A DNA stretch of 44,997 nucleotides from an uncultured Spirochaetaceae bacterium (GTDB lineage: Bacteria > Spirochaetota > Spirochaetia > Sphaerochaetales > Sphaerochaetaceae). Positions within the stretch are counted from its first letter, which is position 1. Each line of letters begins with the position of its first letter. The stretch spans positions 1 to 44,997 of the forward strand of contig CAMDZB010000010.1 in NCBI GenBank assembly GCA_945910645.1. Reading direction: 5' to 3'. Of this stretch, positions 1 through 42,300 are shown piece by piece. The notes below the pieces were generated by a model. That model was given only the letters and a program-made list of their open reading frames with translations. It did no database searches and was not told the origin of the DNA. Position numbers and translations under genes: made by a program.

Positions 1-4480
<4,480 letters not shown>

Positions 4481-17000: not shown

Positions 17001-18564
17001 CACCATCGATAGTCATTGCGCTTCTCTGGTTCAAGAAGTGCAGGTTTGAAATCACAACATGGGCGTCTCCGCTTGCGTCAAACATCCTATCGCCACGCCC
17101 CTTAAGCTTAATCTCGCCGTTTACAAGCGATGCATTTGATAGGAGAATAGAGCCGATGTCTGGGATGAACATTAGCATCTTTTTGCCGTGGAACGATGAG
17201 AATAAAACTGATGCGTCAAACTCAAACGAATTAAGGTTCACCATTGCGCTTGCTGTAAGCTCTTTTACGTTATTGCTCTGACTATTTGATGTAAATGATG
17301 TGTTGATTACGCCGTTTTCAAGCGATAAAAGAAGTGAAAATACGTCATCAACCCTGTCAAAAACAACGTTATCTATGGTCATGTTTCCCTTAGGATTGTT
17401 AAATGGATCTTTAAAATTTGCATCAATTTCACCCTTAAACGGCTTTAGGAACAATAGGTTTTTAGTCTCGATGTTTGATGTGAGTGTAACCTCATTTGTT
17501 TGTCCGTAGTTGTATTTAAAGTTAAGCGATGAAAGCGTGATATCAGGGTTGCCGTACGATGAGAGCTTTAGGCGGAGCAAATCTGAGTTAAAGAGTACGT
17601 TTATATCGTTCCACCCTATAAACTGGCAGATAAGCTCTGTATTATCACTCTCTGATGATATTTCGATGCCATTACGTGAGAACGAGAGGTTTGAAAGTGG
17701 AACGTGTAAGGTCTGATTCCTACTGCTATCGCGCTCTATGTATGGACTTAAGTTTTCAAGACTGAACGTGAGTGATTCTGCTGTGTTATTGTTGATGCGT
17801 AAATCGTCAAAAAGCATGTCTATGCGGTTACTATCGCCTTTTGATGCCTGAATACGTCCGAACTCTATGTTTTCATTCTCAGAGAGGTTTAAAATAAGGT
17901 TTGGAATATTAAGTTCAAATTCCTTGAAGTTGAGTCTGCGGTCGAATGAGATAAACACATCAAGCGGATCTGTATGAATACTGTTATTTTTAGATGCAAT
18001 ATCCACCTTAAACGACTCAAGGTTGATCGATACTCCGTGCTTTAAAACAGAAATTATATTGAACTTCTTCTCAGATTGTTTTTGATCGTTTGAAGTCCGA
18101 TCGCTTATAGAATCATCACCATTTCTGTCATCGATAACTTGATCTATATTTTGATCAGGATTTTCATTCATTGCCATGTCTTTGATGTTCAAATGTGCAT
18201 TTTTAACAGAGACATCAAGAGGCACAGGAAGACCTGTAAGTGACATCACAATACTGAAGAAGGACTGGTTGAAGGCTATCCGTTCTGCACTAAGCAGCGG
18301 TTCATCATCGCCCTGAATCTTAATCTCAACATTATCAAGTACAAAGGCTGAGAGCAGAGCCTCGTTTGTGCTCTTCTCTGCTATAATCTTGATGCCAAGT
18401 GATGAGAAGAGCTTCTCACGGGCCTTTCTATAAGCGCGCGTGTATATATCAAGGTCAAACGCTGAGACTAATACTATGGATATAATTAACGCTGAGATGA
18501 GAAGACTAAAGGATAGAATAAGACACTCTTTAGTGGTGTAAAATTTGCCCTTTCTTTTAGTCAC
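14014..18564 (-). CDS. tamB: TamB/AsmA-like translocation and assembly module protein
   Basis: This is a 1516-residue protein with one N-terminal transmembrane anchor (about residues 14-33), then a very long beta-rich periplasmic region rich in Asn, Asp and Ser. It ends in a DUF490/TamB C-terminal domain with LSFENATLDNLTPRFSSSTG-like and DAEILLILGQNI segments. TamB-type proteins bridge inner and outer membranes; they work with a BamA/TamA-type barrel and are linked to phospholipid transport. The next gene is bamA, 3 bp away. The GTG start at 18562-18564 lies inside the end of rfbA (8-bp overlap) with AAGGAA six bases upstream. The N-terminal half is not recognisable beyond its general repeat-like beta pattern. 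Confidence 0.9.
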   Translation of the reverse strand: MTKRKGKFYTTKECLILSFSLLISALIISIVLVSAFDLDIYTRAYRKAREKLFSSLGIKIIAEKSTNEALLSAFVLDNVEIKIQGDDEPLLSAERIAFNQSFFSIVMSLTGLPVPLDVSVKNAHLNIKDMAMNENPDQNIDQVIDDRNGDDSISDRTSNDQKQSEKKFNIISVLKHGVSINLESFKVDIASKNNSIHTDPLDVFISFDRRLNFKEFELNIPNLILNLSENENIEFGRIQASKGDSNRIDMLFDDLRINNNTAESLTFSLENLSPYIERDSSRNQTLHVPLSNLSFSRNGIEISSESDNTELICQFIGWNDINVLFNSDLLRLKLSSYGNPDITLSSLNFKYNYGQTNEVTLTSNIETKNLLFLKPFKGEIDANFKDPFNNPKGNMTIDNVVFDRVDDVFSLLLSLENGVINTSFTSNSQSNNVKELTASAMVNLNSFEFDASVLFSSFHGKKMLMFIPDIGSILLSNASLVNGEIKLKGRGDRMFDASGDAHVVISNLHFLNQRSAMTIDGALNVEDGIVNIRNTEINLFGFRFTLDGKYNLKTSLPDITAILYKNDTEYARGTFIEDGDLYRGKITSLDGVITFDGLFNLNNPFSTTANGLLTIYNNNYAFDINFDNKTKYLTAITDGLSIKGYAMNNGEINIDINNLNFPKLPFIKVVDSKVNSSINIDLTGELLRVTSDGVNLAFENGSVLDFKLDATRKNIHINDIQVKTAIETYTGAFFVNTINDNGEFSPFNIKVGGSLHSSSLKSTVNISYVPNDNSATLYLDMKGFKGFSTIKGNPFDGIDVSLLATTNLKDKHTVFGSIKASGDRGGDKLNIDIGFNNNVLTLSNFDLSYGNVKIDDAEVTLNLTTGDARLNSYITAEMERVEENSVFSFMLDAVSNIKPLMNAEYNLRNITDVIKGTVNFHNANFHNTFYPSDFTTEIEITSDSIKAIGKTLNGFYNFDDSTLSINLDKSFTIGFSANGSIKNGIIDIQFDNVYFPFNYLELLIWGNSVKFKDGIFEGSVRLVGDTSNPQWYGNLSAKSAVMWNLWAENELCTIMNPKIVAFGNTLNILKTDVLARNTKTGRISRFMVGGKLHIEKWDLPLIELVMDIDKDNPVSVSVPLPQPNLNVDIEDVWGHFEMDLYYLNFPDIRFDLEARDGTLAPPARFPRWLYDPSVPSKPINIERSKKYTKLDGNLKIEKGMSFKYPSVTNPFINASIGENQEGRIEYKDGRFTVDSDLALRSGEIFYFQKNFLITEGTLSWHSMANMGEILESSMTNGFLKQYAADFAGLNLSLSARLKDYDANGNPVDIYLSFENATLDNLTPRFSSSTGLSDAEILLILGQNILPTSTYSSTGLSSLAYMSSVALDVVTKLGVIEPLGKNNLGDTLTRALGLDMFSVRQRIFYNVIADVIPGFSGDGEYGYAFSRYLNGTTIFLGKNVTNDLFFQASFHFLSPSSSQNSGKTKNLFIQGLTGEAEFSLEWNTPLATISIFTNPSELSFLDFLNNIGINIKRHFVL

Positions 18565-26803: not shown

Positions 26804-28018
26804 TTACCTTACGTTTACGAAAAGCTCCGTCTCCTGTACGCCGAGGGCTGCCACTCCAAAGAATGATGCACCTGTGTCAATCATGGATGAAATGCTACTT
26901 ACCAGTGGTAAGATAGCAAACAATATCATTGCATAGTCTTTGCTCTCTATTCCAATAGCGTTAAGTGAGGTTGTCACTACAAATAGTACCTCAAGTCCAG
27001 GATGCATAAGAGCGCTTGCACCTGAGAGTGCAAGTACAATAAACGGAAGCGTAAAATACGCGCTGATATTAACAGCATAATCGTTATACTTTGCGATGAT
27101 GAACACCACAACAAAACTCACAAACGCAACTCCAGGACGTGCGCACAAGGTCAGGAACGGCGTCATACTTGCAGCGTTCTTCTTTGGAATGCCGTTTTCG
27201 TGTCTTAATACCACCTCTTCACTCGGGATTGAGAACAAAACATTGCGTGTAAAGAACGATGAAAGTGCTATGGATAAACTTGAAAAAGTGAGTGCAAAAG
27301 CTGTTTTCCTCTGAAAATGACTTCTGGTAAGGTACATGAGCGGATACACAACAAATAGAAGAACAAGAGCGCCAATAAAGAGGATAATCAGAAGGTTTCT
27401 AACCTCTTTCCCTACACTCTGAAATCCAATGCTCATAAACCAGAATGTGCCTATGAAAAACAACGCAAAATTATAAACACGCGCCATGAAGCGAGCAAAT
27501 CTAAATCCAATTTCAGTAAATGAGTTTAGAACAATATATGCAGGCCTGATCACATCAAGATCCGGCTTTGTAAAATAGCCAATCAAATATGAAAGAGCCA
27601 CTATGAGCAAAAGCAATTTATATGGGGATGAAAAGAGTCCGCCATCGCTAAATAGATCGTATGCAGATGTCATCCCTGAATCTATGATGTCGGATGGACT
27701 TGATGCAAAGTCTACATTCATAAATGTAGGGAATATAACAGACATAATGTACGAGAGCAGAACGGATACTACCATCGAAAGGATGCCCCAGATTATCGTC
27801 TTTAAAAACGTCTTAAAGAATGTCCCCTTTCGCCTTAAGGATGCAACTGATCCCACGGTTGTAAGTAGGGCAAAAAGGCAGGATATCATCACACCGCCTT
27901 GAAGAAGCTTATACGATACATTCTGGAAGAATTCCACCACAAGCTGTACATTTCTAAACGAGAGCGCCATAACGGCTGAGAGTATAAATGCCAAGAAGTA
28001 CGTAAGGCTATACTTCAT
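26804..28018 (-). CDS. Divergent DAACS/SDF-fold protein (dicarboxylate/amino-acid:cation symporter-like)
   Basis: This is a 404-residue polytopic protein. Its order of hydrophobic segments and the C-terminal run GASALMHPGLEVLFVVTTSLNAIGIE, then LVSSISSMIDTGASFFG, align by eye with the second hairpin and TM8 of GltPh-type symporters. The Asp of TM8 is kept (MIDTG). The following Arg that binds the substrate carboxylate is Ala, and the Asn and Asp of the Na+ site are Gly and Leu. The NMDGT motif of TM7 and the serine-rich first hairpin are also missing. The transported substrate, if any, is unlikely to be aspartate or glutamate. Of three ATGs in a row inside the end of the amylase gene, the third (28016-28018) has the best distance to GAGG. 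Confidence 0.6.
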   Translation of the reverse strand: MKYSLTYFLAFILSAVMALSFRNVQLVVEFFQNVSYKLLQGGVMISCLFALLTTVGSVASLRRKGTFFKTFLKTIIWGILSMVVSVLLSYIMSVIFPTFMNVDFASSPSDIIDSGMTSAYDLFSDGGLFSSPYKLLLLIVALSYLIGYFTKPDLDVIRPAYIVLNSFTEIGFRFARFMARVYNFALFFIGTFWFMSIGFQSVGKEVRNLLIILFIGALVLLFVVYPLMYLTRSHFQRKTAFALTFSSLSIALSSFFTRNVLFSIPSEEVVLRHENGIPKKNAASMTPFLTLCARPGVAFVSFVVVFIIAKYNDYAVNISAYFTLPFIVLALSGASALMHPGLEVLFVVTTSLNAIGIESKDYAMILFAILPLVSSISSMIDTGASFFGVAALGVQETELFVNVR

Positions 28019-31000
28019 CATCATCCTCGTCTTTTTCTGAACATTTTGTATAGTTTTCCTTAAGCGTATTGTAGTCGTAGCGCGTGTTATCAGAGAGGCT
28101 GTATAGAAGCGTGTATGAGTCGACAATCCTTATAACATCCCTATCGCCTTCAACCTTGAACATCAGATCAGAAAGTGCCTTGAACGTTGACACCTCCTTA
28201 AAGCGTGAAAGGTCAAAGTAAAGTGTACCCTCGTACTCATTAAGCTTTATAAGCGTTGTAAACTCACTGTTTTCAAGAAGCGCTTTAATGTCATCAGGCA
28301 ACTTACGTGTCTCAAGCATGAGGTAGGCATACCACTTGATGCGTTCCATTCGCTCTCTATCGATTGCTCCGTCCTCTTTCTTAAAGCGATATGTAAAGAA
28401 ACGTAAAACTGAGCGGATAAATAGTAAGAGTTCATCGCTGTCTTTTATCTTATCTAAAAACGGAAGTATCACCATGAGCGTTCCGTATAGCTCCTCCTTG
28501 TTTGGTATGACGCTGAGCGCACCATCAAGGAATAGCGGCATCTTTTTACGCGTAAGCTGGAAGCCTTTGAGCCACTTCTTCACGATTTCAAGAGTGCTTT
28601 CTGTATCAAACTCTCTATATGATGAGAAGAAATCATCGTTTTTCAGCTCACTCTTAATTGCATCATACGTGGTTCTAAGAAGGGTGGTAAGCGTCTTTTG
28701 AGCCTTTGGACTTGATGTTTTAAGTAGGGTTGCTATCGATGCAAAGTAGCTCTCATCAAGTAAAGGCGCCATTGCACTATAGAGCGATGAGAACATCAGA
28801 TCCTCACCGGCATCGTTGATATCCTCAACTCCGCGCCTTCCAAACTTCTCAAAGAAGCGCGCATATATCCCAAACCTGTCAGTAAGCGTTCTGATGTTTT
28901 CAAACACTTGGGTTTCAAAGCCGTTAAGATCAATCCAGAAGCCCTCTTTTTCAATCTTTGAGATTGGATATATGTGATAAAGCTTATCGTTAAGCGTCTG
29001 ATATAGCATGAACTTATCGTTTCCTCTTTCAAGGTTCAGGGCGTTTATGAACGATACGTTTCTTAAGGTTTTCTTGCCGTTTTCCTTCGTATTCTTGCTT
29101 ACAGACATCGTAACCCTGCCGTTTGCCTTAGAGTACGAGTTGTTGTAGAACACAAACACCTTATCAGGTCCCATGCCGTTTGCGTATGCATAGACGTTCT
29201 CCTCGATGCCTCCGTGTTCATTCACAAGGTCGAAGAGTTCAAACGCTTTAGTTCCTGAGAAACATCTTCTCTTCTTAAGAAGTGGGAAGATTAGGGTTTT
29301 ATGCGCATCTAAGAAGGCGTAGTTTGGCGTCTCATCCCACTTTGGCGATGAGAATTCCATTCCGTATTTTTCTCTAAATCCCTCAAGCTGGCCGTGTCCG
29401 AACATAGGAAGGCCTGGGAGTGTTGATAAAAGCGTTGCACATCCAAAGTACTTATCCCCATCTCCAAAGCCCTCTATGGCGGCATCCTCATCAGGATTGT
29501 TAAGGAAATTTACGTAACGCTGCATGATTTCAGGATCAAAGGCGAGCGTCTCTTTAATGCCATCCCTGTATTCCTTGTTCGCTTCGTTTCTCAGCATGTT
29601 CATAAATGCGCTGTTGTATACGCGGTGAAGGCCAAGTGAGCGTACAAAATACCCTTCCATCATCCAGAATGCCTCAGCAAGAAGAAGCGTATTTGGTGCC
29701 TCTTTTTGCACACGATCCACAACCGTTTTCCAGAACTCCTCACCCATAAGGCGTGCAAATTCTTCATCGCTCATTGTGTGGTCTGCACGTCCTGGTATGT
29801 CGCCTGCATGTCCTTCCTCAGGATACCATAGGCGTCTTATATGCTTCATTGCAAGCGTCATTGCAGCATCAAAGCGGATTATAGGAAAGTCGCGTGCAAC
29901 ACGCAAAATCACACCGATTACGGCTTCCCGCACGTCCTTATTAAGGTAATTAAGCTGTGCAGTGTCGTTCCATGGCATACTTGTTCCATCGTTACCGTGG
30001 AAGATAAAACGCGTCTCCCCTGTGTTTTTATCGCGCCTTAGAAAGGTTACAGCGCAGTCTGACTTGTTAAAGTAGTGATCCTCAATCTTAATCTCAACAT
30101 TTGGATCCGAGGAGAGATCCTCACCGTTATATGTGTATGATGCAAACGGTGAATAGCTCTGGCTTATAAAGTACTCAGGGTGCTCAATTACCCATGGCGA
30201 GTCTATTCCCGTATGGTTTGGAACCATATCCCCACAGAGGCGGATATGATAGTTACTAAGACGCTCCTTAAGGCGATGAAGTGAATCCTGACCTCCAAGG
30301 CGATCTGCAATCCTATATTCGTATAGCGAGTATGCAGAGCTCTCCGCATCGCTGTTACCACAAAGGCACTTTATGCGTTTACTTGCAGGGCTTCTCTCCC
30401 ACACACCGATGAGCCAGAGGGCGTTAAAGCCGCTGTCTCTTAAAAATATAAGCTCCTCATCTGGAATCTCATCAAGATGAGTTATGGATCTATTGTATTT
30501 CTTTGAAAGCTGTGAGAGCCAGACAAGGGCATTCTTGGCAATCATCACAACATTAGGCATCCAATCCCTATCCTCAGTGTACGCCTCAATGCCATCAAGA
30601 GTTCCTAGCTTGAACTGTGGCTTTCCACTTCCCGTAAAGTGAGGCTTTCTGAACTCACTAATATAATCACGTGCCTTCTTTAGAAGCTTGAGCACATTTT
30701 CACTAAGGTATTCCTTCCAGTGCTCAAGGATGTACGAAAGCTGATCCTCAAGCGATGTTGGAAAGAGTATAGATGGCTTATTTAGAAAATCAAAGAGCGA
30801 ATCAATATCGTTCTTTTTAAACAGCCCCTTTGTGCTCACGCTCTGGTATGGCAAAAATGACGATAAGAAAAAGATAGCGTCCTTTTCAATATTGAACTCA
30901 TCTGATTTAAAAGCAACCTCTGCATTCTCTATAATTGCAGGGTTTGATGTGATAACATAGTACACGAATAGAGAGCGGAGCGTTTCAGAGAGCATCTGAT

Positions 31001-31349
31001 TCTTTAAAAGCTTTGTTGGAAATGCCATATCATACTGTTTTAGTGATGATTTAAAGGTAGCATTCTTCTCGTTGAGTTTTGTGTAGTCTTTAAAGAGCTG
31101 AATCCTGCTTGTTTTTATAACGTGTGTAATCACATCCTGGTATGCAGAATGAAGCACACCAATTAAATAAAATGAGAGTGAAGAATACTTTCCTGTTTCA
31201 TAAGAAACATTCAAGAGATGCGCAAATTCATCTGCAACTCTATGAAAAACTACAGGTGGATCCTCTGTATTAAAAAGGGGCTGAATATAATCAGTCTTTT
31301 TTCGTACATCTACTGATATTCGTAAATCTCTATTGTCCGCATTCTTCAT
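28008..31349 (-). CDS. Large GH13 alpha-amylase-family protein
   Basis: This is a 1113-residue protein without a signal peptide, so probably cytoplasmic. An N-terminal helical region of about 250 residues precedes a GH13 barrel. Conserved regions are VPNH (about 375), RFDAA with the nucleophile Asp (about 493), LLLAEAFW with the acid/base Glu (about 558) and a fourth region NFLNNPDEDAA (about 615-625), where the usual His before Asp is Pro. GLPMFGHGQLEGFREKYGME follows. The last roughly 350 residues are helical and unassigned. Likely work is on storage glucan or malto-oligosaccharides, but the exact reaction is unknown. I start at the ATG at 31347-31349; a TTG six codons upstream lies within the promoter. 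No ribosome-binding site is visible. Confidence 0.85.
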   Translation of the reverse strand: MKNADNRDLRISVDVRKKTDYIQPLFNTEDPPVVFHRVADEFAHLLNVSYETGKYSSLSFYLIGVLHSAYQDVITHVIKTSRIQLFKDYTKLNEKNATFKSSLKQYDMAFPTKLLKNQMLSETLRSLFVYYVITSNPAIIENAEVAFKSDEFNIEKDAIFFLSSFLPYQSVSTKGLFKKNDIDSLFDFLNKPSILFPTSLEDQLSYILEHWKEYLSENVLKLLKKARDYISEFRKPHFTGSGKPQFKLGTLDGIEAYTEDRDWMPNVVMIAKNALVWLSQLSKKYNRSITHLDEIPDEELIFLRDSGFNALWLIGVWERSPASKRIKCLCGNSDAESSAYSLYEYRIADRLGGQDSLHRLKERLSNYHIRLCGDMVPNHTGIDSPWVIEHPEYFISQSYSPFASYTYNGEDLSSDPNVEIKIEDHYFNKSDCAVTFLRRDKNTGETRFIFHGNDGTSMPWNDTAQLNYLNKDVREAVIGVILRVARDFPIIRFDAAMTLAMKHIRRLWYPEEGHAGDIPGRADHTMSDEEFARLMGEEFWKTVVDRVQKEAPNTLLLAEAFWMMEGYFVRSLGLHRVYNSAFMNMLRNEANKEYRDGIKETLAFDPEIMQRYVNFLNNPDEDAAIEGFGDGDKYFGCATLLSTLPGLPMFGHGQLEGFREKYGMEFSSPKWDETPNYAFLDAHKTLIFPLLKKRRCFSGTKAFELFDLVNEHGGIEENVYAYANGMGPDKVFVFYNNSYSKANGRVTMSVSKNTKENGKKTLRNVSFINALNLERGNDKFMLYQTLNDKLYHIYPISKIEKEGFWIDLNGFETQVFENIRTLTDRFGIYARFFEKFGRRGVEDINDAGEDLMFSSLYSAMAPLLDESYFASIATLLKTSSPKAQKTLTTLLRTTYDAIKSELKNDDFFSSYREFDTESTLEIVKKWLKGFQLTRKKMPLFLDGALSVIPNKEELYGTLMVILPFLDKIKDSDELLLFIRSVLRFFTYRFKKEDGAIDRERMERIKWYAYLMLETRKLPDDIKALLENSEFTTLIKLNEYEGTLYFDLSRFKEVSTFKALSDLMFKVEGDRDVIRIVDSYTLLYSLSDNTRYDYNTLKENYTKCSEKDEDDDEV

Positions 31350-31355
31350 ATTTTG

Positions 31356-31364
31356 ATTATAACA
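31356..31364 (-). promoter_or_regulatory. Extended -10 promoter of the amylase-led operon, predicting a leaderless mRNA
   Basis: TGTTATAAT (31364-31356) is a perfect extended -10 element. The expected start point seven bases after it is 31349, the A of the amylase ATG. The -35 region overlaps the U-tract of the preceding terminator and has no consensus. It is the only promoter-like sequence before a ten-gene run ending at 19487. Confidence 0.6.
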
Positions 31365-31370
31365 CAAGAT

Positions 31371-31407
31371 AAAATAAAAAGATAGGAAGGCAAAGCTTCC
31401 TATCTTT
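31371..31407 (-). terminator. Rho-independent terminator of the giant lipoprotein gene
   Basis: A perfect 12-bp stem AAAGATAGGAAG/CTTCCTATCTTT (31407-31396 with 31389-31378) encloses a six-base loop. On the minus strand it is followed by a U-rich tail made of the end of the stem and TTATTTT. It lies 22 bp after the stop codon at 31429. Confidence 0.92.
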
Positions 31408-31428: not shown

Positions 31429-34400
31429 TTACGTTGTTGTTGTGGACTTTGGAAGGATCGTCCTATAGAGACGTAAACCATAACGCTCCTTATTCACCAT
31501 GTTCAATCCACCAAGGCTGTTCCTACTAAGATCAGTCATCTCGTTGATATTAAACTTATATATCTCTTCTTTCTGATCAGCCCATGATCCACTGAACACG
31601 TAAGGTCCTCCTGAGGTAATAGCCCTATCATTAAAGTTACCTAGCGTAATTTCAATTACGTTTCCGGACATATCATAAAGTCCAAGGAGATTTTTCTTTG
31701 CACCATTGTATCTGATGGCGTCTGCACCTGTAATGTACTTACCTACAGGCTGAGTACCAGGATCATTTGAATACAAACCACCGTAGATGACATAGTCTTT
31801 AAGGCTTTCATGGTTTGTAAGTGTGGATGTTGTGTCAAGACGCTTATCATAGCCTGATGGAGCATTATAAGTCTGCGCATAGAAATTTGTAGGAAGTGAA
31901 GGTGTTTCATTATAAGATGCTTCCCCTGAAAGCGCCTGAGAAGATGATGATGATGCATAGAGGTATTCGCCAACCGTTGGAAGTCTGAATCCTGTCTTGT
32001 CTGCACCAAATCTACCATATGCGGTGTCAGCCTTATCTAAGTATTGAGGATAATGATTATGAATATCCGCAAGTCTAGATTTATCAGTAGCAGTTACAGA
32101 CCTAATTATTGAATTATCTGTATTGAGATATACAGGTGTAAGGGCAACAGCGTTACTTCCATTTATTGTACGCATGTTTGCGTTGTACCATTCTGTTGCT
32201 GCGTTACAGAACACCATCATCTCGTATACAGACATACCAACGATTGGGTCAACTGCACTGTTTCTGTTCCTAGCTGTTCCCTGAGTTCCATTATTATATC
32301 CATAATACTCAGTGGTACTGCTATCAAACGTGTATCCACCTGATGGTGAGGTTGCCCATGTATAGATCTCCTTAAAGAATCCACCTGTCACTGGGATATC
32401 AGCAACTAAGAAGTCGTTATGGATCTTCTGTGTATAGTTTATAGTTGGCCATGAAATGCCACCCTGTAAGCGATAGAAATCCATCTGCTGCTCAGTAGGA
32501 TATGGGTGACGTGTTTCTCCTATAAAGTCTTTGTAGTATGGGCTATACGCTGCACCTTGCTTGATCTTAAGTGATGATGCCTTATCAACATTGAAATACT
32601 TATTGTCAACATTAACAACAGTTACGTTTTTTCCTGTTTCTGTATGCGGTTGGAGAATTACACCATCGCCGTTTACACGCTGCTTTGTTATGTTCTTAAT
32701 ATGCTTATCGTCGAATGTGAACGACGGCGTAAATTTAACAGAGCTTGCTCCCTCAGGAATTGTAAGCGCTGCATTGATTCTACCATAAGGAATAAGTTTT
32801 GCAGTAGAGTACTTGCCGTTCGCATCAGGCTCTGAATAGAATTTGTAATTAACGGTAAGCGTTGATGAAGTGTCAATGCTGCCATCAGCTTTCAACACTC
32901 TGTGTGATACGGGAACTTCCACACCCTCTGAAGGTGTTTGAACAAATTCAATACCGTTATTTTTACTCACATCATCAAGTTGTACGATGAAGTACTGGTT
33001 ACCCTCAATAGCAGCCTCTTTATTTAGGATCACCTCGTTCTGTGACAACTTAATTCCAACATTGTAAACAGGGTTAGGGTTGAAAATTTTGACTTTGACC
33101 TCTCCTCCAGTTGCAAAAGTCGGCTGTGTAACATCTTTAGAATCAGCTGCAGCAAGGGTATCTGATGCAGGGATTGTTAAGACCACATTACCACTTAGTG
33201 TTCCTGATCCTGTTGGATAACCTGTAATCGCAATATCAACAGTCTTGATGACATCAATATCAACAGTATCAGATACCTTTTCAACAGGCCCAATAGTCAC
33301 AGAGTAACTGAGCGTATTTTTTGAATTGTATACAGAGTTAAAGGAATTAAGCCATTTGACCACTGATGCAGTATCAAGATCTGGTCTGAAGTACGTCTTA
33401 TCATTGGTAATAGAGAGTTTAATACCCTTAGTTGTATCAGAGCCGATTCTCACATATGGAATAAACTTGACATTGGTAAGCACTGTTGTTCCATCGCTGT
33501 CGTATGCTGTACCACTAATTGTGTAGTCCCCACTTGGACTATATTGAATGTTTGGCTGCTGAGGCATAGTAAGGCCAGTAACTGCATTTGCAATGCTATT
33601 AGAGGTAATCAGGAGAGGTAGGCTTGTACTTGCAGCATTTGTAACGAATGCTCCTTTGACCCTGAATGTGAGTGTAGTTTTAACGTTGCCTATATCAGGA
33701 TTCGTGTCGCTAGCGCTTGTTGACTTGATTATCTCACTCTTCTGTTCAACTACCTCAAGCCCTTTCTTTGGATCAACTGCGGATTCATTTCCAATGTCGA
33801 TAACGCTAGAAACATTCGTAAACCATGTCCTTAATTTTGTAGGAGTCATAGCTTCAAACTTTCCACCAGTGAGAGTCAATGTGACAGTCTGCCCCTGTCC
33901 ATATCCAAGGTAAACCCTGTGTGGAGCTGAAAGATTAGCATTATTTGATGAAATCCTAAGATTATCATATGACTTGTAGCTTACAGGGCTTGTAAGGCTA
34001 GGTGCCGTATTGGTATTAGCTATGTCATAGTCAGCTGTGGTAAAGTTCGTGATTGGCACGCTGATATCTGCTGTGTTAAGCGTGAGATTTGGAATCGTTA
34101 TGTGCCCTGTGATTCCCACAACCAATGTTGACTTTGCTGTTGTTGTCTTTTCAAGCTGGCTATAATCAAACTGGAAGTAATTGCCGCCAGCCTGTCCTGT
34201 TGACAATTCATTAAGCTTTGCAAACCACCTCTTAACTTCAGCATCTTGTATATCAGTCTTAAACATTGGTGTGATATCAGCACCCTCTGGCTTATTAAGC
34301 GTAAGGAGAACCTTAATGCCGTTGCCGTCTCCAAGTTTGATGTATGGAGTTCCAGCAATTGGATTTGTGCTTGAACCATAGTATCCTTCTGCAGAGCTTA

Positions 34401-37400
34401 TCGTAAGTGTAACATCATCAGTGACGTTGTAGTAGATGTCTGTGTTAAGGTAGAGTGCTTCATTGTTCTCGTTAACTGTTGTGCCTGTGTTATCAAGGGC
34501 GCTGTATGGGATCTTTACAGTTGTTGTACCCCTACCACTGATTGCTGTAGGATTTGGTGCACCAGTTACTCTGATGAGGAGTGAATTTGTATGAAGGCCT
34601 GCACCTGCAATATCCACATACTCGAATTTAACAGTTCCACCAAGAAGATCGCTCAGTGGCTTGAACCATTCTGCAATTCCCGCATTAATAGCATTCTTTG
34701 TTGCCTCAGTATCATCTTTTTTGTCTAATGAGCCACCAAAGAGTGCACCATCAAACTTGAGCATGATTGAAACGCCATCACCTGTCTGTCCAAACTTGAA
34801 GTATCTTGTTGCAACAAGGCTCTTCTCAGCACTGCTTCCTACATACGTACCCTCAGACTGTGGGACTGCTGATACATCCTTAAGGCCTGTTGTATCATAT
34901 CGTGCCCCAGTAATTAGTAACTTCTGACTATCATCCTGAACTTCTCCTGTCTTTTCCTCAGGACCACCATATTGAATATAATTGTATGGAATATAAATTG
35001 GTACATTCTGATCACTTGATGTCGCAGCAGCGTGAGCATAGCCGTTAAGTGTTACAGTTAAGATGTTACCCTTAATAGGCAGCACTGTTTTATCAATAGT
35101 ACACGAAATACCACTAAAAGCATTTTTGAAGTCAGAGTCATTGATGCTCTTTGCAAGTGATTCTTGAAGTGCTATAAGTTTTTCCTCAGTATCCACATTG
35201 AAATTACCGTTTGTAAGCTCAATGCGGATCTTTACAGGGTTTGTACCTCCAATATCCATCCATTTGTATGAACCTACTCCGAGTGGATTATTTTCATTCA
35301 TGCCATAGTTTTGTGATTTTACAAGAGCAGCCTTTACCATCTCATCTGTCGCCATGTAGAGGTTAACAGCATTAGGCGCTCCTTCATCTGTATTTCCAAG
35401 CATTATGTCATCATCTGTAACCATTTCACCATGTGGATTTGCTGCAAGTATATGCTTGTATTTAATGAGTAGACTCTTTGCAACTGTTCCCGTTATCTCT
35501 TTATTTGCGTAACCTGTCACCTTTACATCGATGTATGACTTTCCAGCACCACCGCCGTTTGTAGTATCAAGCTCATATGCAAGGATGCCATATTCTCTAG
35601 TGATCTCTGAGAATATATCTTTAACCATTTCATTATCAAGGTTTTGAGCAAAGCGAGCGTTAGAGAGTTCAACTCTTACAATGACACCATCCTCACGTTG
35701 GTCTGTATTATCGCCAGTAGTAGCACCAGTATTTGTACTTCTTCCAAGATTGATAAATGGCTGTCCTCTAAGAGGTGAATCAGATGATCCTACAAATCCT
35801 GATGTTGTTGAAACGTTTGCAATCACAGCACCTTTGTTCTTAAAGAAGATCTTTGTTGTGTATTTGTCCTCATTAAGCGCACTTGAAGCAAACTTTATGT
35901 AATCCTTCTTGATCTTAAGCTCTGTGCCAAGCTCTGCAAATATTGCAGTCTCATCAGGTAGGTTGTAACCTGTAACCTTGATGACAATGTGATCTTCTGC
36001 AATGCTTGAGAGTAAATACTTACGTGTGCTGTTATCCTTAGGATCTTGAGGGATCTCTATGACTGTACCTCTTATATCCTCATTCATTTTTGTGCTATCA
36101 GAAAGGATTGCATTTAGCTTTGCTGTGTCAAACCTTGCGTTCTGGAGGTTTAATTTGAGTGCAAGTCCGTTTTCACTCTCAGCGTATGAGATGTATGGAG
36201 CGGCCTCAAGTGGAACGCCCTGGCTTCCGTAGAAGTTCGCATCGTTATCCGTAACACTTGATGATACAAGAGATGATGTCTGGTAGTATATTGGAATTGT
36301 CCGTGTTACAAAATCATCCACAGCACCTGCAAGGTCCATAGCTTCTATTTTAATTGATGTTGATGAGTTTGTATTTGGCTTTGTTGGATATCCTTTAATC
36401 TCAATTATAATGCTCTGAAGTCCTTTAGCATTTTCTACTTTATTACCAGTAGAAGGATCCTTGATTGTATAAGAATCGTTAGATTCTGTACTATCACCTG
36501 CTTGTGGATCAACCCATGTTCCACCAACTGCATCTTTGAAGTTTTTAAACCACTCTGCCACTCTTACACTATCAACTTTTTCGCTGAATGTTAGCCTTTT
36601 AGCTTCGCCTGTAATGTTGAGTTTAACTCTCGTTACAGGATATTCTATTGGAGTTCCAGATAATGAGACTGAGTAGTTATAATTAATATATGGTGTTCCC
36701 TTAATTGGATTGTTCAAACTACCAAAGTACGCATCACCAGTATCGATTTCAACATTGTCAGCAGGCTCAGTCCTGTAGTAGACATTAAGAGGTGTTGGAA
36801 CTTTTTCATACGACTCATGGACATTCTTAAGTACGCTGTATGGAATATCAAAGGTATTCACACCATCAAGGCTACCAATCGTTGGGTGACCTGTCACAGT
36901 AAACACTATGTTGTCTTTACCTACTCCTGTATTTTCACCACTTTCAATTACAAAGTTTATTTTAGAGTTATTCACATCTCTTACAAACGAATCAAACCAG
37001 ACCTTCAAGAGTTCTCCAGTTATGTTGTCATTAAATACAGCGTTCTTAAGCTGGATCTTGATCTTGTTACCAAGGTTGTTTGACCCAAAGTTAATGTATG
37101 GAGTTCCGATAAGCTTATTAGCACTTGTTCCTACATAGCCAGTCTCTGATGAGATAGTTGCCGAGATCTTTGATGTGGCATCTGTGGTCTCATACTTAAT
37201 TGCGTTATCCTGATTTGCTTCCTCCTCAAGGGAAGTGATCTTACCGTTTGTATCAACAATACCCTTACGTAAGCGGAATGTGCTTGGTACATTTTCAAAT
37301 ACGAGTGCAGGGATTTGCTGCTTGATAAAACCTGTACATGATGATGAATTAAAGTAACCTTGAATATTCACATCAACCCATGTACCGTTTGTATCGTATG

Positions 37401-40400
37401 CAGCAATTGTTGCTTTTTCAATTGTTACATCAGAATTTTCTTTAAACCAGCTCGTAACAATAGCACCCACTGCAAGTGATGATGTTTTAAACTTAACAGG
37501 ATGATTCTTTGCCGATGGTAAAATATCCCCAACATCACCTTCTCCATATGCATAGCCCTGTTTGTTGCTGATTCTCACCTTAAATCCTGATGGTATTGAG
37601 CCTGTACCATCATCAAAGTATGTCTTTTCTGGAGCTGTTAAAGCTTTCGCCTCAGATCCGTAGTAACCAGTCATATCCTCAATTGTTAGGATCGAGAAAT
37701 CAGCCAGTCCCCTATAGTAGATGTTCTTTGTGAGGCTTGATGTCTGCCATTCACTGTCCGCAGAGGCATTTTGAATGTCAGCAAATGGGATCACTACTCT
37801 AAGATCTTTAGCACTAGCGCTCCATGCAATGTTACTGTAGCCGTGGATTCTGAATTCAACAACATTAGGAGCGTTTGCATCCTGTCTAATGTCATCAATG
37901 TGTGTCTCTTTTCCATCTTCAACATTCATAATGTCTCTTATGTCTGGAATCCACTGTTCGATGTCTGATGCTGTGAGTCCCTGTCTGAATGCACCGCTTG
38001 AAAGCGTGATCTTAACACGGTATCCAAGAGCATGGTCGCTGTCTATCAAGTAGCTCTGAGAGAGCCACATTGGGTTTGTGCTTTCTGCACCTGTGTATCC
38101 TGCATCGTTAGAGAGCGTAATAACAGGTGTAACTCCTGTGTAGAAGTTAAAGCTATTGTTAGTAATCTTTAATGTGTTATCGACACTCGAAATTCCGCCG
38201 AGCATATCCTCATATGGAAGTGTGAATGTTGTGGCTCTTTGAATGTTTGGAACTTTTGCATAACCTGTCATCTTAAGGGTTAGCGGGTCTGTACCCTTAC
38301 CATCAACGTATTCAACCTTAAGTGATGAGGCACTGTCAGCAACGTCTCCCACCACCGTCTTAATAACGTCAGTAGCGCCTGTATTGAACCACTTCATCAC
38401 TTTTTCTGATGTTAGAGTATCGCTGAACTTAAAGTCGGTCCAGTTCTTGTTATCAGTTATTTTATCTGATGAGAGCTTCAGTCTAATGAATCTCTCTCCT
38501 ACATTAATATAAGGGAGGGCATCTATTCTATTATCATAGTCTGACGCAACAGATCCTTCTACTATTGTCACAACAGGCTTGTTACCTGTTCTATAATACA
38601 ACTGAGGATTTTTAATTACAGATGCATCAGTATCGTCTGATGTACCGACTTTCCAGTTCTGGAGTTTATCAGGTGGAATAATGACACTTTGTGTTAGTGC
38701 ATCAGATGATGTTGCTGATATTGAGTAGCCGTTCAAGCTTACGATTATTGAACTCTGATCAGTCATAATCAACTTTACAATTGCACTTGTAATTTTAACA
38801 TTTGTATTTGATGCAAAGACAAACCAACTCTTGATATCTTCACCAACGCTGAGGTTCGTAAACTTAGCTCTTTCAAGGTTGATTCTTATATCCTCACCGC
38901 TTCCGTTTGCAATACCAACATAGTAAGGAATTGATACAGGGTTAGAAAGCTCAGCACCCTTATACACAGTATCAAATTTTGCGCTTGCCTTATCCTCAAT
39001 CTTAAAGTAAAGCGTGGTTGTCTTGTTGCCCTGAGCAGCAATTGCACCATCAATTGCAGTCCATGGAACTGTTACAGTGACAACTCCGTTATTAGGTTGA
39101 GCTGTTGCAGGGACGTATCCTGATATTAAGAGCTCAAGTATGTTCTGGCTTGATGCTGTAGTGTCCGTTGTAATATTAAGTTCAGTTGCGCCAATTGTCT
39201 CTTTAATCTGATCAAACCATCCTAGAATCTCTGAGTCTTTCTGACCTGTAATAAACTCATTCTTAAACTTCTTGTTTGAAAGAATAAGGCGAACTCTTGA
39301 TCCTCTTGTATTGTTCTCATCACCTGTATAGAATCCTGGGACAAACTGTAATGGCTTTACAGCACTTGAGCCGTAATAGCCTGTGGTATCAGAGATGTGA
39401 ACCTCTACATCTGTAGTCTTAATAAAGTAACAATGCTGTGTTATGGAGTATGTCTTATACGTCTCACCAAATTGAATGTGACTTAGTGGAATTTCAATAT
39501 CGCCATAAGATGGCTGTGCGTTTCCTCCATCAGATCCTGATGTTGCAGACTTACCTGTTCCTATGATGCGGATTACGATTGTGTCTTCTCCGCTGCCGCC
39601 TGATAGTATCTCTGCGCTGAGGTCTGAGAGGAACCAATATGCGATGTTTTCAAACCATTGTTTTACATCAGTTACACTCAAGCCATTCTTAAACTTGCCG
39701 TTGCTGAGTGTGATCTTAATTTGTGATTCGCTCTTCTCGTTTGGAACAGCGATGAGCGGATAGCCCTCTGTTCCTCTAAAGTCGCCGTCCGTATTGTCTA
39801 GAATAGCAAGTGTAACTTCACTAGTTACCTTATATGGAATGTTCTTGACAATAGGAGTTGCAAACTTTGCATTCTTAATGTATTCAGGGCTGATTGAAAT
39901 CTGAAGATTGCCTGAATTCTTAAGAGTATCAGTTTCTGTTTTATAGTAGTTCTTAAAGCTACCTTCAAGGTTGATAACAAGAGATTTTTTCTTACCGTCT
40001 GCATCAGCAATCACCTCGTGTACTGTTACAACCGGGTTGTCAATTATGCCATCTGCATTTATAAGCCACTTTGTGATGTCTTGACCCTTAGAAAGTCCTT
40101 CAAACTCAGCCTGTTTGTCTTGACCTGTGATCTCGAGGCTGTCGTTGATTGTAAGGAGTATTAGCTGACCGTCTGTATCATCTCCGTCTGTTTCTTTTAC
40201 GCTATGGATGCGTAGGTTCTTAACGCCTTCAATAGGCTTTGTCGGATAGCCGTAATATTTGATATCGTTATCTTTTACAGTGACATCATATGCAATCTCT
40301 CTCCATATTGCTGTAAGAGACTGATTCTCCCTTCTGTTCACAATTGCATTATTATCATCATCTGGATTATAGACGTTGTTTTGCACCTTCTCGCCAGTCA

Positions 40401-42300
40401 CATCGTCTCTCCACTCAACAAAGAGCCAACCAGGAACTGGATGATTCTTCTTGATATCTTCAAGGTCTACGAGTGTTATCTGATTTGGCTTTGTCCATTT
40501 AGCTTTTGCAGAATAGTTTCTGTCTGGTTTAATAAGTTGTGATATTTGTCCTTGACCGTTTATGATACCACCGCCAGATCCTTCTGTTATTTCGTAACCA
40601 CCGAATATGAATTTATATTTTGTGGCATCGTTATTGCCGTTTAGCCTTGCTTTCTCTGTGTCAAATGCACTCTTGAAGTCAGATTCCTCTTTAATATCGC
40701 TGTTGCCAAGGTTGTATGTTATATTCCAAATTTTCTCAGGTATGGTTATTGTTGGAAAACCATCGATTGTGAGAATCTTCTTTTCAGGATCACTTATTAT
40801 TGCGCCAGGCTCTGATACATACCACTCATTTACCTCTGTTGCATAGAAAATGCCGTCAGGAATATCAACCTCTGTTTCAACCTTTGCCCCATTGGCTTCT
40901 TTTTCAACTTTTGCTTTTGGTTCCTTTGTTGCGTTTTGAGAATCTAGGGTTACACCGAACACCTTGTTCTTTGTCCACTTTGCGGTGATTGTGATTGTTG
41001 GAACTTCATCAACTGCCTCTGCCCTATCCACCTTGAATGTGTATTCACCAGGAGTAGCTTCATTGATCTTAGTAGTTCCTGAATAGAACCCATCAAACCT
41101 CCATCCATAAGCAGAAGGTGCCTTGAACGAAATTGTAGGTTTTTTATCCTCATCAACAGAGCCCAACCATCTCCAATCAGCTGTTACCTTTCTCTCTTTC
41201 GAAACAAAGTTGCCAGGTTCGATTGACTTATTGATGTCACCTTCACTGCTGATATACTCAGTTGTTCCAAATTTATATCCCTGGAACGACCACGATATTG
41301 TTCTGTTAAACTGATTGTCGCTAAATGCTACCTGCATCTCATCATCAGACGGATAGTCAACACCTGGTGTTCCATTCTGTTGGTTCTCATGTACAAATAC
41401 AACCTTCCACTCCTTTTTTGGAAGCTCATCTAAACTAAGCTTGTCTATAGTAGGTCCAAGCCCGGTACCTCTATCATCACCTTCATTACCACCAATGGTA
41501 CTGAACGACCATTTGTGATCCAAATAGTATAGGGTAGTTTTTCCTTCATCTTTTTTTGCAATCTCTGTGTAGTCATTATTCACATCACCGTTACCCCATG
41601 GTTTTAAAGTAAGTTTTTTTACAACAGAGTCATTCCATACACCGTATAGAGTCTCGTTGCCGAAGAGCTTCTTTGACGATGTGACTACTTCTGATGAGGA
41701 ATCACCTTTTGGTGTTGAACTTCCCACCTTTGGTTTATAACCTACAAATGAAAATACACCATTTTTATCTACGATATTCTTTTCAAAATTAACAGTTGGA
41801 GCATCACCCCAATCTGCCGTGATAGTGGTGTCGCCCTTAATGGAAGGATATGAGTTAGTCTGATTAACGAGCATAATATGCCCGTCTTCGTCTATAAAGC
41901 CCTTATAGCCTTTAAATTTAACTTCTGCTGAAACAGAACCACGAGGCTCCTCATACTGTTGTGTTTTTTCATCATAACGACTAGGAGTTGGTTTATAGTC
42001 ACCTACATACACAGTAGGGTCAACATACGTGATCGCTGCCGTGTATTTGAGAGTAGGCTTATCGATAGGGTTCTCAGACGGTGTAAGCTTCTCTTTGCCG
42101 TCTGTGTTCTTGTACCACGACTTATCAAGAGGGTTATAGAAAATCTGCGTGGTGCCCCTTGTATCTCCATTGCTTATAAGAGTTAGCTTGTAATAATACG
42201 GCGTGCTGTCATCATCACACGATGTGATAAAGAGCCCCACTGTAAAAATCAAAAGCAACGCTGCAAATAGAGTTTTTAATGTTCTGTTAAAATTTTTCAT
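31429..42300 (-). CDS. Giant repeat lipoprotein with C-terminal FGE/C-type-lectin-like domain
   Basis: This 3623-residue protein begins with a type II signal peptide (basic MKNFNRTLK, a hydrophobic core, then ITSC with lipidated Cys28) followed by DDD. Residues about 30-680 contain InlB/Flg_new-like units ending in TADW, TAKW, KAKW or TAIW. Residues about 680-3070 hold some sixteen divergent repeats of about 150 residues. A further beta-rich spacer (about 3075-3290) leads to a C-terminal domain (about 3297-3611) with FCNAATEWYN, GFRLPTVGEYLYAS, LLGLYDMSGNV, FSGSWAD and YGLRLYRT, the FGE/SUMF1 signature order. The paired catalytic cysteines of FGE are absent; the protein has only about five cysteines in all. 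It is probably a surface-anchored adhesin or ligand-binding filament. It has its own promoter and terminator. Confidence 0.9.
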   Translation of the reverse strand: MKNFNRTLKTLFAALLLIFTVGLFITSCDDDSTPYYYKLTLISNGDTRGTTQIFYNPLDKSWYKNTDGKEKLTPSENPIDKPTLKYTAAITYVDPTVYVGDYKPTPSRYDEKTQQYEEPRGSVSAEVKFKGYKGFIDEDGHIMLVNQTNSYPSIKGDTTITADWGDAPTVNFEKNIVDKNGVFSFVGYKPKVGSSTPKGDSSSEVVTSSKKLFGNETLYGVWNDSVVKKLTLKPWGNGDVNNDYTEIAKKDEGKTTLYYLDHKWSFSTIGGNEGDDRGTGLGPTIDKLSLDELPKKEWKVVFVHENQQNGTPGVDYPSDDEMQVAFSDNQFNRTISWSFQGYKFGTTEYISSEGDINKSIEPGNFVSKERKVTADWRWLGSVDEDKKPTISFKAPSAYGWRFDGFYSGTTKINEATPGEYTFKVDRAEAVDEVPTITITAKWTKNKVFGVTLDSQNATKEPKAKVEKEANGAKVETEVDIPDGIFYATEVNEWYVSEPGAIISDPEKKILTIDGFPTITIPEKIWNITYNLGNSDIKEESDFKSAFDTEKARLNGNNDATKYKFIFGGYEITEGSGGGIINGQGQISQLIKPDRNYSAKAKWTKPNQITLVDLEDIKKNHPVPGWLFVEWRDDVTGEKVQNNVYNPDDDNNAIVNRRENQSLTAIWREIAYDVTVKDNDIKYYGYPTKPIEGVKNLRIHSVKETDGDDTDGQLILLTINDSLEITGQDKQAEFEGLSKGQDITKWLINADGIIDNPVVTVHEVIADADGKKKSLVINLEGSFKNYYKTETDTLKNSGNLQISISPEYIKNAKFATPIVKNIPYKVTSEVTLAILDNTDGDFRGTEGYPLIAVPNEKSESQIKITLSNGKFKNGLSVTDVKQWFENIAYWFLSDLSAEILSGGSGEDTIVIRIIGTGKSATSGSDGGNAQPSYGDIEIPLSHIQFGETYKTYSITQHCYFIKTTDVEVHISDTTGYYGSSAVKPLQFVPGFYTGDENNTRGSRVRLILSNKKFKNEFITGQKDSEILGWFDQIKETIGATELNITTDTTASSQNILELLISGYVPATAQPNNGVVTVTVPWTAIDGAIAAQGNKTTTLYFKIEDKASAKFDTVYKGAELSNPVSIPYYVGIANGSGEDIRINLERAKFTNLSVGEDIKSWFVFASNTNVKITSAIVKLIMTDQSSIIVSLNGYSISATSSDALTQSVIIPPDKLQNWKVGTSDDTDASVIKNPQLYYRTGNKPVVTIVEGSVASDYDNRIDALPYINVGERFIRLKLSSDKITDNKNWTDFKFSDTLTSEKVMKWFNTGATDVIKTVVGDVADSASSLKVEYVDGKGTDPLTLKMTGYAKVPNIQRATTFTLPYEDMLGGISSVDNTLKITNNSFNFYTGVTPVITLSNDAGYTGAESTNPMWLSQSYLIDSDHALGYRVKITLSSGAFRQGLTASDIEQWIPDIRDIMNVEDGKETHIDDIRQDANAPNVVEFRIHGYSNIAWSASAKDLRVVIPFADIQNASADSEWQTSSLTKNIYYRGLADFSILTIEDMTGYYGSEAKALTAPEKTYFDDGTGSIPSGFKVRISNKQGYAYGEGDVGDILPSAKNHPVKFKTSSLAVGAIVTSWFKENSDVTIEKATIAAYDTNGTWVDVNIQGYFNSSSCTGFIKQQIPALVFENVPSTFRLRKGIVDTNGKITSLEEEANQDNAIKYETTDATSKISATISSETGYVGTSANKLIGTPYINFGSNNLGNKIKIQLKNAVFNDNITGELLKVWFDSFVRDVNNSKINFVIESGENTGVGKDNIVFTVTGHPTIGSLDGVNTFDIPYSVLKNVHESYEKVPTPLNVYYRTEPADNVEIDTGDAYFGSLNNPIKGTPYINYNYSVSLSGTPIEYPVTRVKLNITGEAKRLTFSEKVDSVRVAEWFKNFKDAVGGTWVDPQAGDSTESNDSYTIKDPSTGNKVENAKGLQSIIIEIKGYPTKPNTNSSTSIKIEAMDLAGAVDDFVTRTIPIYYQTSSLVSSSVTDNDANFYGSQGVPLEAAPYISYAESENGLALKLNLQNARFDTAKLNAILSDSTKMNEDIRGTVIEIPQDPKDNSTRKYLLSSIAEDHIVIKVTGYNLPDETAIFAELGTELKIKKDYIKFASSALNEDKYTTKIFFKNKGAVIANVSTTSGFVGSSDSPLRGQPFINLGRSTNTGATTGDNTDQREDGVIVRVELSNARFAQNLDNEMVKDIFSEITREYGILAYELDTTNGGGAGKSYIDVKVTGYANKEITGTVAKSLLIKYKHILAANPHGEMVTDDDIMLGNTDEGAPNAVNLYMATDEMVKAALVKSQNYGMNENNPLGVGSYKWMDIGGTNPVKIRIELTNGNFNVDTEEKLIALQESLAKSINDSDFKNAFSGISCTIDKTVLPIKGNILTVTLNGYAHAAATSSDQNVPIYIPYNYIQYGGPEEKTGEVQDDSQKLLITGARYDTTGLKDVSAVPQSEGTYVGSSAEKSLVATRYFKFGQTGDGVSIMLKFDGALFGGSLDKKDDTEATKNAINAGIAEWFKPLSDLLGGTVKFEYVDIAGAGLHTNSLLIRVTGAPNPTAISGRGTTTVKIPYSALDNTGTTVNENNEALYLNTDIYYNVTDDVTLTISSAEGYYGSSTNPIAGTPYIKLGDGNGIKVLLTLNKPEGADITPMFKTDIQDAEVKRWFAKLNELSTGQAGGNYFQFDYSQLEKTTTAKSTLVVGITGHITIPNLTLNTADISVPITNFTTADYDIANTNTAPSLTSPVSYKSYDNLRISSNNANLSAPHRVYLGYGQGQTVTLTLTGGKFEAMTPTKLRTWFTNVSSVIDIGNESAVDPKKGLEVVEQKSEIIKSTSASDTNPDIGNVKTTLTFRVKGAFVTNAASTSLPLLITSNSIANAVTGLTMPQQPNIQYSPSGDYTISGTAYDSDGTTVLTNVKFIPYVRIGSDTTKGIKLSITNDKTYFRPDLDTASVVKWLNSFNSVYNSKNTLSYSVTIGPVEKVSDTVDIDVIKTVDIAITGYPTGSGTLSGNVVLTIPASDTLAAADSKDVTQPTFATGGEVKVKIFNPNPVYNVGIKLSQNEVILNKEAAIEGNQYFIVQLDDVSKNNGIEFVQTPSEGVEVPVSHRVLKADGSIDTSSTLTVNYKFYSEPDANGKYSTAKLIPYGRINAALTIPEGASSVKFTPSFTFDDKHIKNITKQRVNGDGVILQPHTETGKNVTVVNVDNKYFNVDKASSLKIKQGAAYSPYYKDFIGETRHPYPTEQQMDFYRLQGGISWPTINYTQKIHNDFLVADIPVTGGFFKEIYTWATSPSGGYTFDSSTTEYYGYNNGTQGTARNRNSAVDPIVGMSVYEMMVFCNAATEWYNANMRTINGSNAVALTPVYLNTDNSIIRSVTATDKSRLADIHNHYPQYLDKADTAYGRFGADKTGFRLPTVGEYLYASSSSSQALSGEASYNETPSLPTNFYAQTYNAPSGYDKRLDTTSTLTNHESLKDYVIYGGLYSNDPGTQPVGKYITGADAIRYNGAKKNLLGLYDMSGNVIEITLGNFNDRAITSGGPYVFSGSWADQKEEIYKFNINEMTDLSRNSLGGLNMVNKERYGLRLYRTILPKSTTTT
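33085..40257 (-). repeat. About sixteen divergent ~150-residue protein repeats within the giant lipoprotein
   Basis: Each unit opens with a strand and a GYYGSxxNPLxGTPYIxxG-like motif. It continues with an amphipathic KIxLxLxNAxF segment and a helix ending in WF (also WL or WI), then a strand with xGY (VTGYP, IHGYS, MTGYA), and closes with IPYxxL and IYYxT. Opening motifs fall at about residues 682, 840, 977, 1117, 1257, 1406, 1547, 1726, 1861, 2027, 2173, 2336, 2490, 2645, 2788 and 2936. Spacing is 135-180 residues. The DNA copies are strongly diverged, so the array is old. I do not recognise the unit as a named domain. Confidence 0.8.

Follow-up and report, generated by a model that had tools for sequence, protein, structure and literature searches.

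A giant lipoprotein-like protein of an uncultured spirochaete bears an FGE-like, TvpA-type putative binding head at the end of 16 Ig-like repeats

The DNA analysed here (the window) is a stretch of 44,997 nucleotides, contig CAMDZB010000010.1 of GenBank assembly GCA_945910645.1, from an uncultured Spirochaetaceae bacterium whose genome is called G000 below. It carries a gene for a giant lipoprotein that combines a lipobox, a long array of repeats and a C-terminal domain of the formylglycine-generating enzyme (FGE) family. The parts of the gene and the element that follows it are listed here, each with the evidence used.

31429–42300, minus strand: giant lipoprotein gene of 3623 aa; open reading frame with ATG start, PF03781 at the C-terminus
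42217–42300, minus strand: signal peptide and lipobox ITSC, with Cys28 as the presumed lipidated residue; translation inspected by eye
40282–42216, minus strand: N-terminal region, weakly InlB/List-Bact-repeat-like; PF18998 (Flg_new_2) below cut-off
33121–40281, minus strand: stalk of 16 repeats of ~140 aa, most likely Ig-like β-sandwiches; repeat profile, AlphaFold2, Foldseek and VIA
32497–33120, minus strand: linker from the last repeat to the head, without repeat or Pfam match
31432–32496, minus strand: FGE-like head of TvpA type without cysteine pair; PF03781, PDB profile matches and cysteine count
31432–31650, minus strand: the end of the head past GNVIE, which corresponds to the variable region in proteins of diversity-generating retroelements (DGRs) and changes fastest within the head; identity with the homologue in the congener G001
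31376–31407, minus strand: terminator-like hairpin and T run directly 3′ of the gene, AAGATAGGAAG...CTTCCTATCTTTTT; by eye

The N-terminus of the lipoprotein, MKNFNRTLKTLFAALLLIFTVGLFITSC, is signal-peptide-like, and the lipobox ITSC was located by eye at residues 25–28. The region that follows matches PF18998 (Flg_new_2) with an E-value of 0.0069, under the cut-off; PF09479 is above cut-off in a paralogue (L012) and in the G001 homologue (L014). A literature search on InlB B-repeats in Treponema returned nothing relevant. Directly downstream of the giant gene, at 28008–31367, lies a gene whose 1119-aa product has a weak alpha-amylase match in its middle (PF00128, 32.9 bits), with no domain assigned to either flank.

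The head comprises the 355 C-terminal residues (3269–3623; window 31432–32496, minus strand). The first-pass annotation, made from the sequence alone, had placed an FGE/SUMF1-like domain at 31429–32410 on the strength of five motifs. All five of them, FCNAATEWYN, GFRLPTVGEYLYAS, LYDMSGNV, FSGSWAD and YGLRLYRT, are in frame of the minus-strand open reading frame 31429–42300, and the domain assignment stands, with its limits better drawn at 31432–32496. PF03781 (FGE-sulfatase) matches a 343-aa C-terminal piece with an E-value of 1.4e-10 and 41.7 bits against a curated cut-off of 23.3, and matches the whole lipoprotein at residues 3291–3557 with an E-value of 5.6e-08. Of the 255 profile positions, the match in the head covers none beyond 194, so that the C-terminal part is left out. 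The head shares domain family and motif order with SUMF1/FGE, and differs from it in the absence of the cysteine pair and of any sulfatase found in the genome.

The only cysteine of the head lies in FCNAATEW, and there is none past the GNV motif, in line with the earlier observation that paired catalytic cysteines are missing. At the place where human SUMF1 has GGSYMCHRSYC, aligned with GGSWGCNPDDC of a phage homologue, the window protein reads SGSWADQKEEI. None of nine aligned heads from G000 and G001 has the FGE-type pair, in an alignment that left out two PF03781 matches (G000:C2, which is partial, and G001:C57), and inspection by eye of the C-termini of further FGE-like heads, including those of the congener G002, revealed no cysteine pair of FGE spacing. 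The sulfatase profile PF00884 found nothing in the three congeneric genomes, the own genome included, and was positive in 10 of 14 control genomes in the same search. Lacking both the cysteine pair and a sulfatase in the three congeneric genomes, the head was rejected as an active FGE, and the sequence data support a non-catalytic role for it. A scan of viral contigs yielded four phage loci. Two nearly identical ones from IMG/VR (L051 and L054) code for a small protein of FGE type in which the FGE-spaced cysteine pair, GGSWGCNPDDC, is retained, and L051 served as the positive control for the pair.

A family profile of the head was built from eight sequences: the window head, those on C3 and C11 of G000, those on C43, C70 and C44 of G001, and the loci L023 and L026. 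It matches 26 distinct PDB sequences at E ≤ 1. The best match is 5aoh (E 8.5e-31), deposited under the name Spore coat protein CotH, a chain of 273 aa and hence without such a stalk. TvpA of Treponema denticola (2y3c) follows with an E-value of 1e-23, far better than the first true FGE (6s07, E 3.8e-11), although two of the sequences behind the profile come from spirochaetes of other genera and may favour the TvpA match; PorK/GldK chains match at 2.2e-13, and the kinase-named chain 5nxl at 3.7e-11. An AlphaFold2 model of the head from a 6-sequence alignment reached a pLDDT of only 40.3, and the fold assignment therefore rests on sequence profiles. These support the kinship with the TvpA-type head that had been suggested at first sight.

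The C-type-lectin fold of TvpA belongs to the FGE subtype (PMC6328139). As judged by profile, the window protein carries the same kind of head at its C-terminus, and TvpA is likewise a predicted lipoprotein according to PMC4891356. The two differ in that TvpA is a single-domain protein (PMC6328139), whereas the head here sits on a 16-domain stalk; moreover, TvpA is a DGR variable protein, whereas the window gene is without reverse transcriptase, template or AAY excess. A similar layout is that of L023, on the Treponema MAG contig JAISTO010000214.1, which also has N-terminal repeats followed by an FGE-like head without cysteine pair; its stalk, however, consists of PF09479 repeats, and the Ig-like unit was not found among its open reading frames.

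The long stalk behind a lipid anchor that the first-pass annotation had seen can now be given in units. A profile made from 14 hand-cut units detects 16 repeats (14 strong, 2 weak) from residue 674 to about residue 3060. Pfam gave no match for the repeats in the window protein, and a PDB sequence profile search with the stalk unit returned only an S-layer protein with an E-value of 0.12. When one of the 16 units was modelled by AlphaFold2 with the other 15 as alignment, the model had a pLDDT of 88.1 and a pTM of 0.83. Foldseek ranked ChiW first for this model (E 3.2e-3, probability 1.00, TM 0.51), no match falling under 0.001. VIA likewise ranked ChiW first, at residues 935–1042, with a Z of 7.4 and an rmsd of 3.1 over 105 residues, a Z under the tool's own mark of 8, below which a match can mean merely a common arrangement. 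Next came the S-layer proteins SbsB (Z 5.4) and SbsC (Z 5.3), and the matches ranked below ChiW and the S-layer proteins show ordinary β-sandwich resemblance. The ChiW region corresponds to Ig-2 (Ser928–Phe1044), presented in PMC5132251 as a seven-stranded Ig-like domain and a possible linker. The closest folds to the stalk unit are ChiW Ig-2 and then the Ig-like domains of SbsB and SbsC, at moderate scores and 15% identity, and the modelled fold of the unit is most likely Ig-like. No description of giant Ig-like lipoproteins of Treponema was found in the titles and abstract beginnings searched. The combination of lipoprotein, repeats and FGE-like head is an already known architecture; the Ig-like unit and its expansion in the genus appear undescribed in the libraries and literature searched.

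Of 139 genomes of the family, three have the Ig-like unit, and all three belong to the same genus as the window: G000 and G001, and with one weak match G002. Besides the window gene, its carriers in G000 are a 4310-aa open reading frame and a contig-edge one of 1856 aa (C18), a contig-edge one of 1413 aa (C23) and one of 1478 aa (C3). The G001 carriers measure 3844, 824, 2773, 1545 and 1091 aa, several of them cut by contig ends. The giant lipoprotein-like open reading frames at L065 (G000:C18), L066 (C23), L068 (G001:C36) and L069 (G001:C90), of up to 4310 aa, have the repeats and no FGE head; the 4310- and 3844-aa proteins have other C-terminal regions in its place. The head itself was found, at E 0.001, in two of 41 genomes searched, its own counted, and a peptide-pattern scan of an 84,980-species collection added four distant loci, including a Treponema MAG and a Spirochaetaceae MAG.

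In G001 the homologue is split over two contigs. The last 47 residues encoded on C61 are identical to the start of the open reading frame on C70, and since C61 carries 16 repeats and C70 the head, G001 has the same lipoprotein architecture. The stalks of the window protein and its G001 counterpart are 24% identical over 2655 aligned columns. The orthology of this head pair was taken from architecture and sequence match; synteny is present in three of the four cross-species head pairs, C3/C43 having four downstream genes in common and both C11/C44 pairs the tandem order and one more neighbour. On C11 of G000 (L013, L050) three genes are consecutive, the first encoding ~2290 aa and the other two encoding shorter proteins (694 and 562 aa) that bear FGE-like heads and whose order is kept in G001 (L016).

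The heads do not change evenly along their length. Across the four pairs of species homologues, identity past GNV amounts to 20, 22, 23 and 19%, about half of what the remainder of the head shows (41, 46, 42 and 31%, in the same order); for the window head and its G001 homologue the values are 20% in the C-terminal segment and 41% elsewhere. The faster change of this segment fits a ligand-facing surface, but misalignment or relaxed constraint could contribute to the difference.

Is the head of the window gene diversified by a retroelement? The reverse transcriptase profile PF00078 has no match in the own genome and none in the three genomes of the genus, whereas 66 of the 139 family genomes have one. 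A search of the own genome for a template repeat of the head DNA returned only 56 bases (80%) and 35 bases (89%) of the C3 paralogue, the longer of which encodes part of the GAKKNLLGLYDMSGNV scaffold. AAY codons number 5 in the last 45, the gene mean being 3.2 per 45, and 20% of windows along the gene reach 5, so that the impression of no clear AAY enrichment at the end of the gene is borne out. With 33 contigs and a completeness of 95.7%, the assembly is not closed, and for this reason a missing DGR cassette is unlikely yet conceivable. An ongoing DGR acting on the window gene was rejected as far as the assembly allows, there being no reverse transcriptase, template copy or AAY excess; the sequence evidence thus supports the absence of diversification, and the earlier statement that diversification was not supported holds genome-wide.

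The third congener, G002, is different. In its draft genome, which measures 2.0 Mb and is 87% complete, PF03781 matches 16 times; 14 of these matches were taken as loci, and 13 C-termini were extracted by pattern. Seven of these 13 ends (L030, L032, L036, L038, L042, L043 and L044) follow the pattern RGG-x-(W/C)...CSV...GFRLARS, in which replacements are scattered; just beyond the stop codon, most of the seven are still alike in DNA sequence. Several of the seven genes have a GC-rich hairpin, GGCAGGCGGCGGGCCGCCTGCC, 3′ of the stop. With the 165-base end of L036 as query, G002 gave seven long matches, one of them the query itself, and an eighth of 24 bases; the same query had no match in G000 or G001. 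Five of the seven ends were picked for gap-free alignment. Among their 41 codons, positions 1 and 2 are unchanged in 20, one of the two is changed in 6 and both in 15, counts that refer to the variable ends alone, without a scaffold control. The variable codons mostly end in C, AAC included, and third positions also vary, in 22 of the 41 columns. Such a pattern would be the expected outcome of adenine mutagenesis of AAC codons. Neither a reverse transcriptase (PF00078) nor a template (165-base L036 query) was found in the G002 draft genome. A copy on C70 of G002 (L078:11663–11775) lies outside any PF03781 match, in a 116-aa open reading frame close to where the contig ends, and is not adenine-rich; it was therefore rejected as the template and is probably a degraded variable region.

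We propose, with a probability of roughly 0.65, that the window gene encodes a giant lipoprotein with a non-catalytic, non-diversifying, putative binding head on a surface stalk. In this proposal, the N-terminal lipid would anchor the protein in the membrane, the chain of 16 Ig-like domains would extend outwards as a stalk, and the TvpA-type FGE-like head, its copper site lost, would end the stalk as a binding tip of fixed specificity for an outside partner, which might be a host or neighbour cell, a glycan or matrix. Since the head resembles an enzyme whose active site it has lost, it probably serves to hold on to an extracellular partner. The FGE-like fold alone is no proof of binding, since the PorK/GldK scaffold, PvdO and EgtB share the domain and are not adhesins. 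The C-terminal segment of the head, which a DGR varies in TvpA, would here change between species by ordinary evolution and not by retromutagenesis.

One alternative concerns the origin of the head and leaves its present role as just proposed: the head may be a former DGR target, frozen after the lineage lost its DGR. The DGR-type ends of G002 are consistent with such a history, and PMC4891356 describes isolates of T. denticola that retain target genes but have neither reverse transcriptase nor template repeat. We nevertheless regard it as unlikely, given that the G002 heads and the window head do not match at E 0.001. Descent from a head that never belonged to a DGR is equally simple, because DGRs have a much narrower distribution than heads of the FGE type.

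Second, the head might be a structural domain like GldK/PorK that holds a partner within the cell's own envelope and has no outside ligand. The match of PorK/GldK to the head profile speaks for such a scaffold, but the far end of a 16-domain stalk is an odd position for it and the head sequences differ widely between species, which makes it rather improbable. Much less credit can be given to a head that is a still-diversified DGR variable protein whose reverse transcriptase and template are encoded in genomic DNA missing from the assembly. The window head is of the same type as that of TvpA, a congener has at least seven FGE-like ends of DGR type, and the assembly is not closed; against this, in addition to the missing reverse transcriptase in all three congeners, the lack of a template-like copy in G000 and the unexceptional AAY count, the end of the window protein is without the RGG-W...CSV...GFRLARS pattern of the G002 ends, and the window and G001 heads differ throughout and not at the end alone. 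Finally, that the head is an active formylglycine-generating or other metal-dependent enzyme can scarcely be believed, its PF03781 match above the cut-off notwithstanding, with no cysteine pair in it and no sulfatase in any of the three congeners.

Enzyme and DGR target are the best-known roles of FGE-like heads. Here such a head, at the tip of a giant Ig-like stalk, bears the sign of neither, and the family libraries searched contain no entry for the stalk domain. The long stretches of DNA that two small genomes spend on such proteins suggest that contact with cells or surfaces matters to the lineage. Tentatively, and with considerable doubt, the genus may use FGE-like heads in two ways, one species having many DGR-type ends and two species of ~1.2 Mb, without detectable reverse transcriptase, having giant receptors with genus-specific Ig-like stalks and ordinarily evolving heads. 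If true, this would offer a natural comparison of programmed and ordinary receptor diversification on one scaffold. Since related heads in one species of the genus have DGR-type ends, that scaffold could also serve to study how diversification is gained or lost.

Elsewhere in the window, at 14014–18564, a gene for a 1516-aa protein without Pfam match adjoins a BamA-like gene at 11290–14010; its position suggests that the protein may be TamB-like.
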